Source: Flagellimonas sp. CMM7 (GTDB taxonomy: Bacteria > Bacteroidota > Bacteroidia > Flavobacteriales > Flavobacteriaceae). Taken from it: a stretch of 64,000 bases of DNA. Location: NCBI RefSeq assembly GCF_021390195.1, contig NZ_CP090003.1:670001-734000 (forward strand), in the 5' to 3' direction. Shown here piece by piece: positions 20,753 through 24,424 of this stretch. The notes under the pieces were generated by a model, which ran no database searches, was not told the DNA's origin, and worked only from the letters and a program-made list of their open reading frames with translations. Numbering within the stretch: the first letter of the stretch is position 1; each line of letters opens with the position of its first letter. The position numbers and the translations under genes were made by a program.

Positions 20753-21748
20753 ATGAAGGAAACTTTAAATCGATTAATAAACCACGAAATACTATCTAAA
20801 AGCGATGCCAAGCAAATCTTGGTCAACATTGCCAAGGGTGATTACAACACATCGCAGATTGCAGCATTTTTGACTGTATATATGATGCGAAGCATCACTA
20901 TTGAAGAATTGGAAGGTTTCCGCGATGCATTGCTGGAGCTTTGTTTAGCAATAGACCTATCGGACTATAATCCAATTGACCTATGTGGCACTGGAGGTGA
21001 TGGTAAGGATACTTTTAATATCTCCACATTGGCATCTTTTGTAACAGCCGGGGCAGGTATAAAAGTGACCAAACACGGTAATTACGGGGTTTCATCTAAA
21101 TGTGGCAGCAGTAATGTCATGGAGTTTTTAGGTATCAAATTCAGTAATGAAGTAGATTTCCTTAAAAGATCCATTGATGAAGCAGGAATATGTGTTCTGC
21201 ATGCTCCCCTGTTTCACCCAGCCATGAAAAATGTAGCGCCAATTAGAAAAGAGCTTGCCGTTAAGACCTTTTTCAACATGCTAGGTCCTATGGTAAATCC
21301 TGCATTCCCAAAAAACCAGATGGTGGGTGTGTTCAATTTAGAACTGGCCAGAATGTATGGATATCTCTATCAAAACACGGATAAAAATTTCACCGTCCTT
21401 CATGCTTTGGATGGTTATGATGAAATCTCTTTGACAGGATCAACAAAAACTATTTCCAATAACTCTGAAGGGATGCTTACCCCTGTTGATTTTGGTGTGC
21501 AGCGCATTTTACAAGAAGAGATTACTGGCGGTGATGACGTAGCGCAATCTGCTCAAATATTTTTGGATATTTTAAACGGTAGAGGAACCGAGGCACAAAA
21601 CAATGTGGTGTGCGCCAACGCTGGAATAGCTATTTCAACAGTAGAAGGCATAACGCCCAAACAAGGTTTTGAAAAAGCAAAGGAGTCACTCTTAAGCAAA
21701 AGAGGACTGGGAGCATTAAAAAAATTACAAGAGCTAAGCGCATCATGA
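20753..21748 (+). CDS. trpD: anthranilate phosphoribosyltransferase
   Basis: This enzyme transfers the phosphoribosyl group of PRPP to anthranilate. The PRPP-binding loop DLCGTGGDGKDTFNIST (~residue 80) and the anthranilate-site KHGNYGVSSKCGSSNVME are intact. I start it at 20753 (MKETLNRLINHE) because the alternative ATG at 20735 lies inside the palindromic repeat element. The product is about 331 residues. Its stop overlaps the trpC start as ATGA. Confidence 0.95.
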   Translation: MKETLNRLINHEILSKSDAKQILVNIAKGDYNTSQIAAFLTVYMMRSITIEELEGFRDALLELCLAIDLSDYNPIDLCGTGGDGKDTFNISTLASFVTAGAGIKVTKHGNYGVSSKCGSSNVMEFLGIKFSNEVDFLKRSIDEAGICVLHAPLFHPAMKNVAPIRKELAVKTFFNMLGPMVNPAFPKNQMVGVFNLELARMYGYLYQNTDKNFTVLHALDGYDEISLTGSTKTISNNSEGMLTPVDFGVQRILQEEITGGDDVAQSAQIFLDILNGRGTEAQNNVVCANAGIAISTVEGITPKQGFEKAKESLLSKRGLGALKKLQELSAS

Positions 21749-22530
21749 ATATCCTTGATAAAATAGTAGCGGATAAACGCAAAGAGGTCAATTTAAAAAA
21801 GTCGTTGATTCCCGTTTCGCAATTGGAGCAATCTGTTCTTTGTGGTCGAGACACGGTTTCTTTATCTGAGGCTCTTAAAAATAGTAATTCGGGAATTATT
21901 GCCGAGCATAAACGGCGTTCGCCTTCAAAATCGGTAATCAACCAAAAACTTAATGTTCAAGATGTAGCCAGAGGGTATGAAGAAGCTGGAGTTTGCGGCA
22001 TGTCCGTTTTAACCGATGGAAAATACTTTGGAGGGTCTTTGGATGATTTATTACTAGCAAGATCAGTTACAAAGTTTCCTGTGCTACGAAAAGAATTCAT
22101 TATTGATGAATACCAAATTTTGGAAGCCCTAGCACACGGTGCTGATGTAATTCTCTTGATAGCCGCCATTTTATCAAAAATGGAAATAAAAAACCTTTCA
22201 GAAATAGCAAAAAGTTTGGAATTGGATGTGCTTTTGGAAGTTCACAACGAAGAGGAATTGCATAAATCCATCATGCCAAGTTTGGATATGTTAGGGGTAA
22301 ACAACCGAAATCTCAAAACCTTTGAGGTGAGTTTGGAAACTAGCAAAAGTCTGTCAAAATTGATTCCCGATGAATTTGTAAAAGTTTCGGAAAGTGGCAT
22401 CAGTACCATTGAAGCCATTCAAAATTTAAAGCAATATGGCTATCAAGGTTTTCTGATTGGAGAGAATTTTATGAAAACGGAGGACCCCGGAAAGCATGCA
22501 ACTGAATTTATAAAAGCCTTGGAACCATGA
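21745..22530 (+). CDS. trpC: indole-3-glycerol phosphate synthase
   Basis: This TIM-barrel enzyme closes the indole ring, converting carboxyphenylamino-deoxyribulose phosphate to indole-3-glycerol phosphate. Catalytic motifs IAEHKRRSPSKSVI (~residue 51), VLRKEFIIDEYQI (~112) and LGVNNRNLKTFEV (~residue 190) are present. The 261 residues are normal and the protein is not fused to TrpF. It overlaps trpD and trpF by four bases each, so translation is probably coupled. Confidence 0.96.
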   Translation: MNILDKIVADKRKEVNLKKSLIPVSQLEQSVLCGRDTVSLSEALKNSNSGIIAEHKRRSPSKSVINQKLNVQDVARGYEEAGVCGMSVLTDGKYFGGSLDDLLLARSVTKFPVLRKEFIIDEYQILEALAHGADVILLIAAILSKMEIKNLSEIAKSLELDVLLEVHNEEELHKSIMPSLDMLGVNNRNLKTFEVSLETSKSLSKLIPDEFVKVSESGISTIEAIQNLKQYGYQGFLIGENFMKTEDPGKHATEFIKALEP

Positions 22531-23246
22531 AATTCAAAGTCTGTGGAATGAACCAGAACCCAAAAGAAGTTGCTCAATTGCAACCGGATTATTTGGGCTT
22601 TATATTTTGGGAACCTTCAACACGCTATTTTGATGGTGACATGCCCGACTTGCCAAAATCCATTAAAAAAGTTGGGGTTTTTGTCGACGCTTCTATTGAG
22701 GAAGTACTTCAAAAAATTGAAAAGTATAAATTGAATGCAGTACAATTACACGGAACGGAAAGTCCTAAATATTGTAAGAATCTACAAGATAAGTTTCCGT
22801 CATTTCGAGCGCAGTCAAGAAAAAATAAGCTTACACTCCCTGAAAAGATTTCGACTCCGCTCAACCTGACAGCATTAGAAATCATCAAAGTATTTTCGAT
22901 AAAAGATGACTTTGATTTTTCAATTCTTAAACCCTATGAAGCATCCTGCGATTATTATATGTTCGATACCAAAGGAAAACTACCTGGCGGTAACGGTTAT
23001 GCCTTTGATTGGAGTATTCTAAAAGAATATCCTTCAGAAAAACCTTATTTCTTAAGTGGAGGTATTGGATTGGATGAAATAGAAGATTTATTGGCTTTTT
23101 TAGAAAGTCCAGCTTCAAAACGATGTTATGCCATAGATGTAAACAGTAGATTCGAGATACAACCAGGGCTCAAAAACATTGAACAACTAAAAGAATTTAA
23201 AAAGTTGTTGTCTGACAACTTTGAACCTAATACTAGCAATTCATGA
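22527..23246 (+). CDS. trpF: phosphoribosylanthranilate isomerase with in-frame repeat insertion
   Basis: TrpF isomerises phosphoribosylanthranilate. The catalytic cysteine is in FKVCGMNQ (residue ~5) and the general-acid aspartate in [13 protein letters not shown]; phosphate contacts are in [11 protein letters not shown]. At 239 residues it is about 24 longer than usual. The excess corresponds to a 72-bp imperfect palindrome at 22799-22870 that keeps the frame and adds 24 residues (about 92-115). Excising it gives an uninterrupted ...[12 protein letters not shown]... and a 215-residue protein. The insert lies between a helix and the next strand on the non-catalytic face, so activity is probably retained. 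Confidence 0.94.
22799..22870 (+). repeat. palindromic repeat element inserted in frame within trpF
   Basis: This 72-bp imperfect inverted repeat begins GTCATTTCGAGCGCAGTC and ends in the near complement GACTCCGCTCAACCTGAC; 14 of 18 terminal positions pair. It equals exactly 24 codons and has no stop codon in the trpF frame. The terminal GTCA/TGAC resembles the ends of the trpG-trpD element. The GTCATTTCGAGCGCAGTC-like sequence is one I recall as a dispersed repeat in flavobacterial intergenic regions. No target-site duplication is visible. Confidence 0.8.
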
Positions 23247-24424
23247 GTTATCACGCTAACGAAAAAGGATATTACGGAGAGTTTGGTGGTGCGTTCATTC
23301 CAGAGATGCTTTATCCAAATACCGAAGAACTTCGTCAAAATTACATCCGCATTATGGAAGAACCTTCTTTTAAAGAAGAGTTTGACCAATTGCTCAAGGA
23401 TTATGTTGGACGCCCCACCCCACTCTATTTTGCAGAAAGGCTATCAGAAAAATATCAAACTAAAATCTATCTAAAACGAGAAGATTTATGCCATACAGGT
23501 GCACATAAAGTGAACAACACCATAGGTCAGATATTAATGGCCAAAAAGCTCGGTAAAAATAGAATCATCGCTGAAACAGGTGCTGGACAACATGGCGTGG
23601 CTACAGCAACGGTTTGTGCTCTAATGGGCATTGAATGTGTAGTATACATGGGTGAAATTGATATTGCACGTCAAGCACCAAATGTAGCCCGCATGAAAAT
23701 GTTGGGGGCAGAAGTACGGCCAGCTTTATCGGGTAGTAGAACATTAAAGGATGCCACAAATGAGGCCATCCGTGATTGGATCAATAATCCAGTGGATACC
23801 CATTATATAATAGGTTCTGTGGTCGGCCCTCATCCATACCCTGATATGGTGGCGCGTTTCCAATCGGTGATTTCCGAAGAAATTAAAACGCAGTTGTTAG
23901 AAAAAGAAGGCATCGAAAATCCAAGTTACGTGGTGGCCTGTGTTGGCGGAGGCAGTAATGCTGCTGGAGCATACTATCATTATCTGGATACCCCTGAAGT
24001 TGGAATTATTGCAGTGGAAGCAGCAGGAAAGGGTATTGACACTGGGGAAAGCGCAGCAACCTCTGCCTTGGGAAAAGTGGGAATTATTCATGGCAGTAAA
24101 ACCCTTTTAATGCAAACCAATGATGGTCAAATTACCGAACCCTATTCTATTTCTGCAGGATTGGATTATCCTGGTGTTGGACCAATGCATGCCCATTTAT
24201 TTAAATCAGGTAGAGGGGAATTTATTTCTATCACGGATGATGAAGCTATGACTGCTGGATTGGAAGTTTCACAACTGGAAGGAATTATTCCCGCTATAGA
24301 GACTTCCCATGCCTTTGCCATTTTTGAGTACAAAAAGTTTAAAAAAGAGGATATCGTAGTCATCAATCTTTCAGGGCGTGGTGACAAAGATTTACAGAAT
24401 TATATTGATTATTTTAAATTATGA
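23243..24424 (+). CDS. trpB: tryptophan synthase beta chain
   Basis: This PLP enzyme condenses indole with serine to tryptophan. The PLP lysine is in [14 protein letters not shown] (~residue 87), the phosphate-binding GGGSNAAG near residue 234, and the catalytic glutamate in [13 protein letters not shown] (~residue 110). At 393 residues it is the TrpB1 type that partners with TrpA. ATGA overlaps join it to trpF and trpA. Confidence 0.97.

Follow-up and report, generated by a model that had tools for sequence, protein, structure and literature searches.

A tagged palindromic repeat lies in frame in trpF of a Flagellimonas bacterium, in a loop that is most likely a landing pad for several repeat families

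Introduction

How does a palindromic repeat come to lie in frame within the coding sequence of an enzyme, and what becomes of it once it is there? The question is raised by trpF of Flagellimonas sp. CMM7, the genome of which is a single contig of 4.42 Mb. The stretch analysed here, referred to as the window, comprises 64,000 nucleotides (positions 670001-734000 of that genome). In it, trpF lies between trpC and trpB and is interrupted by a 72-bp cassette, the parts of which are as follows.

21745..22530, + strand: trpC, open reading frame, upstream neighbour of trpF, used as a tree marker
22527..23246, + strand: trpF (phosphoribosylanthranilate isomerase), open reading frame of 239 residues including the insert, Pfam PRAI match of 110.5 bits
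22798..22801, + strand: CGTC tag at the left end of the cassette, read from the sequence, tag types as given in the available part of PMC3733652
22799..22870, + strand: type A palindromic repeat cassette, in frame, 24 codons, assigned from the sequence, genome matches and alignments
22799..22822, + strand: left arm of the cassette, one mismatch against the genome-wide A arm, near-invariant across 16 species
22823..22846, + strand: spacer of the cassette, resembling the spacers of other A cassettes in trpF
22847..22870, + strand: right arm of the cassette, the arm near-invariant across 16 species
23243..24424, + strand: trpB, open reading frame, downstream neighbour of trpF, used as a tree marker

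Results

An open palindromic cassette in a helix-to-strand loop of TrpF

The original prediction described an imperfect inverted repeat at 22799-22870 that adds 24 open codons to trpF, and both parts of this description agree with our counts. The first 18 and last 18 bases of the cassette pair at 14 of 18 positions, its 72 nucleotides contain no stop in the trpF frame, and TrpF without them has 215 residues. The product is recognisable as TrpF by sequence matches to PDB relatives and by fold (1nsj, TMt 0.84), a fold search with the model returning nothing beyond this confirmation, and its closest named relatives are those of Flagellimonas species. Residues F146 and D147 are invariant in 58 sequences, D147 being the aspartate of the FDTKG motif, which has a catalytic role. 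As expected of inserted sequence, the residues at about 92-115 are missing from the distant TrpFs with which they were aligned (11 proteins of other genera, L065-L075), and a cassette-free genome, G055, reads NRFPELEII where the flanks in the window, if joined, would read DKFPALEII.

An AlphaFold2 model of the window TrpF, built with 58 sequences (mean pLDDT 86.5), has the overall architecture of the TrpF barrel. In it, helix 80-101 and strand 118-124 bound the insert (residues 92-115), in agreement with the helix-to-strand loop that had been proposed. Helix-to-strand loops of such barrels face away from the active site. In the model, the insert extends helix 80-101 and then becomes disordered, residues 105-114 having pLDDT values below 50; a second stretch this low is 151-157.

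The cassette belongs to a repeat family dispersed through the host genome

When up to 3 mismatches are allowed, the arm motif GTCATTTCGAGCGNAGTCGAGAAA has a single match in the window and none in any of 100 shuffles. The prediction had called for further copies in the host genome, and these were found: at the same tolerance TTTCGAGCGNAGTCGAGAA has 37 genome matches against 1 for the reversed control. Thirty of the 37 were examined, corresponding to 25 distinct sites, of which 12 carry both arms by hand count. The paired arms are inverted and typically bounded by TGTCA and TGACA, and a strict pattern recovers 9 A dimers of 54-76 bases in the examined loci, the trpF copy included. The left tag is CGTC in the window and TGTC in most other A copies, while the right end carries TGTC on the other strand. 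One match (L030), with 3 mismatches and no tag, was judged to be due to chance. Folded alone as single-stranded RNA, the hairpin of the window is of modest stability (z -1.84), and Rfam gave no match in 22400-23300.

Several A copies are traversed by an open frame well inside a gene. Two of these genes, leuS and gltX, score over their NCBIfam cut-offs; three further frames, with best matches to metH, bioF and the methylmalonyl-CoA mutase small subunit gene (mutA), score below them, the metH-like frame being a piece cut by the end of the locus. Against PDB relatives, LeuRS has a plain insertion of 9 residues at the repeat, GltX and MetH have gaps of 4 and 3 residues, respectively, and the bioF-like and mutA copies have none. 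Because these gaps are small or absent, the in-gene copies in gltX, metH, the bioF-like gene and mutA depend for their assignment on the match to the arm and on an uninterrupted frame. Seven loci (L006, L009, L016, L018-L020 and L022) were not counted as in-gene, since their repeat falls within the first 20 residues and may precede the real start. The leuS copy of the window's genome (L001) is a single A arm with a partly duplicated end, in frame in LeuRS. Together, these observations support the reading that a palindromic repeat found throughout the genome was inserted in frame in a protein of a Bacteroidota bacterium, at a helix-to-strand loop.

Several repeat families occupy the same loop in related species

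We read the loop in 60 genomes of the genus (Flagellimonas/Allomuricauda), of which 58 have a TrpF. The repeats were sorted into types A to F, our own labels, assigned by eye from the DNA letters with a regular-expression tally as a rough check. By this reading, 51 of the 58 genes carry a repeat at the loop: full A in 17, one arm of A (half A) in 8, B in 20, B-left/A-right in 1, B and A in tandem in 1, C in 2 and D in 2; the remaining 7 have no recognised repeat. Thus, the view that the insert is private to this bacterium had to be given up, as repeats occupy the loop in the majority of the genus and belong to more than one family.

Type B is a palindrome unrelated to A (CGTCATGCTGAACTTGTTTCAGCATC...GGGGTGACG), its CGTC tag being present in 19 of the 20 B cassettes, and its cores recur in genomes of the genus. 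Its arm, read by eye, has an 8-bp stem and a 5-base loop, and five B cassettes (G027, G029, G041, G043 and G046) have the stems in reversed order. The C pattern has 7 matches in G025 (control 0) and is absent from G024, the second genome labelled C by eye; D in the trpF loop is a putative family, labelled by eye in its 2 cases. Among the best 120 of 7998 homologues, further mixtures were seen (A-left/B-right, B-left/A-right, B+A and B+C), as were palindromes nested in cassette arms. In trpF of G018 and G044 (L056 and L057), the arms of an A cassette and of a B cassette contain a further short palindrome of the CCTGCCGGCAGGCAGG type, which adds 21 bases and keeps the frame. The trpF of G017 (L102), counted as cassette-free, reads CGTCA...GTGAC and looks like a collapsed B element.

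Across the family, a TrpF match was obtained in 138 of 149 genomes (one per genus, the window's own included). Loops were read for the 29 best other genera (L182-L210, 28 of them readable), a choice that favours loops with inserts. Type B occurs in L185, L187 and L188 and as half of L184, type F (CGTCATTACGAGG...) in L183, L184, L189, L192 and L198, and A arms in L189 and L190. The F pattern has 21 matches in the 5 F genomes and none in the control. Judged from sequence, then, the TrpF loop of related species holds at least three repeat families besides A.

The type at the loop changes between close relatives

Repeat types were mapped onto a tree of trpC and trpB (63 rows; G038, which lacks trpC, was left out). 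The type at the loop requires at least 27 changes on this tree. Of the 14 changes needed for B, well supported branches force 10, and of the 15 needed for A they force 11. A leuS tree with the leuS insert removed (48 rows, fewer than half of the positions being filled in 18 of them; bootstrap support had not fully settled) requires at least 19 changes. On both trees, three pairs of sisters differ in having A or B, namely G031(A)/G059(B), G053(A)/G015(B) and G057(A)/G046(B), and one pair in having A or C, G020(A)/G025(C).

The flanks of the cassette were then compared between such genomes. In 12 of 13 windows, the G059 flanks are closer to those of its sister G031 than to those of any other genome with B. 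For G015/G053, similarity to the sister is higher in 4 of 11 windows, the same in 2 and lower in 5; with no preference for the sister, a longer piece of trpF may have recombined there. In G035/G008 the windows beside the cassette are mixed or undecided.

The type in trpF also follows the repeats resident in the genome. A-arm copies have a median of 40 per genome with A in trpF (n = 25) and 17.5 with B (n = 20; p 0.0012, kinship uncorrected). B copies tend in the opposite direction without differing clearly (11 in A-trpF and 19 in B-trpF genomes, p 0.074). The A:B copy ratio tracks the trpF type (p = 1.4e-5). These values are uncorrected for relatedness between the genomes, for their completeness and for the arms that the cassette itself contributes.

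Silent sites are near-constant in the arms but not in the spacer

A silent-site freeze within a coding gene makes it possible to test directly if such repeats undergo homogenisation or selection. Silent sites were compared in 16 full A cassettes (120 pairs), the nested cassette of G018 being left out. pS reaches 0.68 in trpF outside the cassette, against 0.51 in the A spacer and 0.11 in the A arms. The spacer value lies at the 5th percentile of host windows, whereas none of 179 host windows is as low as either A arm, the lowest being 0.41. Similar values are seen in half-A cassettes (8 rows, arm 0.10 versus 0.54) and in reversed-B cassettes (5 rows, arm 0.12 versus 0.64). In B cassettes of the usual order (6 rows), the left arm is frozen (0.18) and the right arm is at 0.42, with 11 of 167 host windows as low. 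Arms that stay near-unchanged at silent sites next to a drifting spacer must be either renewed or held as DNA.

The 16 A spacers in trpF have a mean identity of 0.528, against 0.320 for shuffles (largest 0.343), with the window's own spacer among the less alike; for intergenic spacers of the host the value is 0.231 (8 copied spacers). The sharing of spacers in trpF thus points to one origin of A in this gene. Standard pairs make up 93.1% of the arm pair cells, 11 of the 16 sequences have a mid-arm mismatch, and no hairpin covariation beyond that of shuffles was detected in them. A copy number and arm decay are not correlated (rho -0.24, p 0.37).

leuS is a second repeat-bearing site and can hold a DUF559 domain

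By its sequence, leuS is a second such site besides trpF. The gene was found in 60 of 60 genus genomes, G014 and G038 giving weak matches only, and the site was read in 50. Seven have a short spacing of 30 residues, and many of the rest were read by eye as having A arms, B halves, a D-like repeat or some other repeat. In five species, the site is occupied by an in-frame DUF559 domain of some 105 residues, with inverted GC-rich repeats on either side. A search with PF04480 (DUF559) in 8 genomes also placed the domain inside three other proteins; in the window's genome the match is weak and partial.

G041 (L234), G001 (L240), G007 (L241), G044 (L236), G034 (L242): leuS with in-frame DUF559, REP arms at the same site elsewhere
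L232:10-3141 (G034): DUF559 inside MetH, host domains on both sides
L246:58-2700 (G001): DUF559 inside RecG, host domains on both sides
L244:1-2832 (G057): DUF559 inside HsdR, host domains on both sides

At the protein level, DUF559 in MetH, RecG and HsdR is flanked by Pro/Gly-rich stretches like those in LeuRS.

RAYT-like genes do not adjoin the A and B repeats

PF01797 matches occur in 10 of the 60 genus genomes and are missing in 50; the window's genome has 1 partial match, with a stop. No A or B core arms lie beside PF01797 loci in the examined flanks, some of them shortened by contig ends, although one such locus (L111) has a weak B-like half match. RAYT was therefore rejected as the mover of A and B. 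A D-type arm (CTGAGCTTGTCGAAG) lies just outside a RAYT-like gene in L114 and L116 and about 1 kb away in L112, and is possibly the own REP of that RAYT-like transposase. The motifs of the genes at L114 and L116 resemble Bacteroidetes subclass 2.6 as described in the available part of PMC6006769.

Discussion

The 72 bases in trpF form a dimer of tagged palindromic repeats of the REP type, and the TrpF loop is most likely a permissive landing pad, into which resident repeat families may insert repeatedly, to be read into the protein as harmless additional residues and to overwrite each other. We give this explanation as a whole a probability of roughly 0.7. A type A cassette would have entered trpF early in the genus, to be later halved, lost or replaced, and the replacements would be drawn from repeats already present in the same genome, either through re-insertion or through gene conversion at the arms, movements that we infer from the patterns above. 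TrpF presumably still works with its insert. Several results count against this explanation: the flanks of G015/G053 and the windows of G035/G008, the unclear difference in B copies, the right arms of usual-order B cassettes, the absence of the C pattern from G024 and the lack of PF01797 in most genomes. Moreover, the identical junctions of B cassettes in scattered species speak against independent insertion, as they are not predicted without a target preference, and the lack of correlation between arm decay and copy number speaks against simple gene conversion, which might give one.

Shared junctions are what would be expected if each type had instead entered trpF only once and its cassettes had then passed from species to species through homologous recombination of short pieces of the gene. 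The same junctions within each type in scattered species, the shared A spacers and the G015/G053 flanks all fit such exchange, but it has to contend with G059/G031 flanks that are sister-like up to the windows beside the cassette, with several B stem variants and reversed orders, and with a resident A:B ratio that tracks the type; we regard it as rather unlikely. It is less probable still that the palindrome is kept for a useful DNA or RNA hairpin, which might stabilise the trp operon mRNA, for example, or bind a protein; types could then be swapped because every palindrome would do. Frozen arms beside a drifting spacer, a repeat in 51 of 58 species and the high share of standard pairs would suit a hairpin in use, yet covariation does not exceed that of shuffles, a mid-arm mismatch is common, the window's hairpin is weak, 7 of 58 species have no recognised repeat and 8 of 58 have half a cassette. 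Ordinary variation in loop length, with a chance resemblance to repeats, is refuted by the 37 genome matches against 1, by the 0 of 100 shuffles and by near-exact arms in many species, even though TrpF loops do vary in length.

What might move the repeats of the landing pad? At leuS, repeats share one site with an in-frame nuclease-like domain, which makes DUF559 a candidate for the missing mover of CGTC repeats; that it moves them is a guess. We take DUF559 to be akin to Vsr and homing nucleases. A wider scheme, to which we give little credence, would make certain loops of the housekeeping enzymes TrpF, LeuRS, MetH, RecG and HsdR docking sites of a so far undescribed class of coding mobile element, in which an endonuclease gene of the DUF559 (Vsr-like) kind between palindromes cuts or invades codons and is kept in frame, the REP dimers of trpF and leuS being small passengers swapped in place via tagged palindromic ends. 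A single loop rewritten by several repeat families would in any case make the fate of inserted DNA traceable across dozens of species.

The claim of novelty survives in part. In-frame REP or RPE inserts are already known beyond Rickettsia, in several other bacteria, according to the available parts of PMC3733652 and PMC10969869; the intragenic examples named in that of PMC3733652 are not from Bacteroidota. Among the matches listed in our literature search, which covered neither subscription papers nor supplements, no paper was found on in-gene repeats in flavobacterial trpF or leuS or on DUF559 inside these genes, nor any description of a landing pad with swapped repeat families and frozen arms.

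Three known systems invite comparison, the first two by what the available parts of the sources describe. The palindromic elements of Rickettsia lie in frame within genes unrelated to one another, and their translation becomes part of the protein (PMC10969869, PMC3733652), RPE-4 and RPE-6 being CGTC REPs (PMC3733652). By description, the trpF cassette shares with them a palindromic repeat in frame within a protein gene; they differ in being of about 150 bp, compared with 72 bp here, and in residing in an intracellular alphaproteobacterium (PMC10969869), and serial replacement of families in one loop is not told of them in those parts of the two papers. CGTC-tagged REPs have a CGTC, TGTC or CCTC tag, a stem of 8-9 bp and a loop of 4-5 bases, are mostly head-to-head dimers and list Bacteroidetes among their hosts (Di Nocera 2013, PMC3733652). 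The A cassettes share with them the CGTC/TGTC tag, the dimers, the intragenic copies and the lack of a linked transposase. The type A hairpin differs in being bulged, with an outer stem of about 4 bp read by eye, which departs from the stem and loop lengths of CGTC REPs, whereas the type B arm fits them. The nearest precedent is recB of two Xanthomonas species, where different REPs lie at about the same site (PMC3733652). With REPIN/RAYT systems, finally, the repeats have in common that they are dispersed pairs of inverted tagged palindromes, but here no RAYT is flanked by A or B repeats, and most genomes of the genus are without a PF01797 match.
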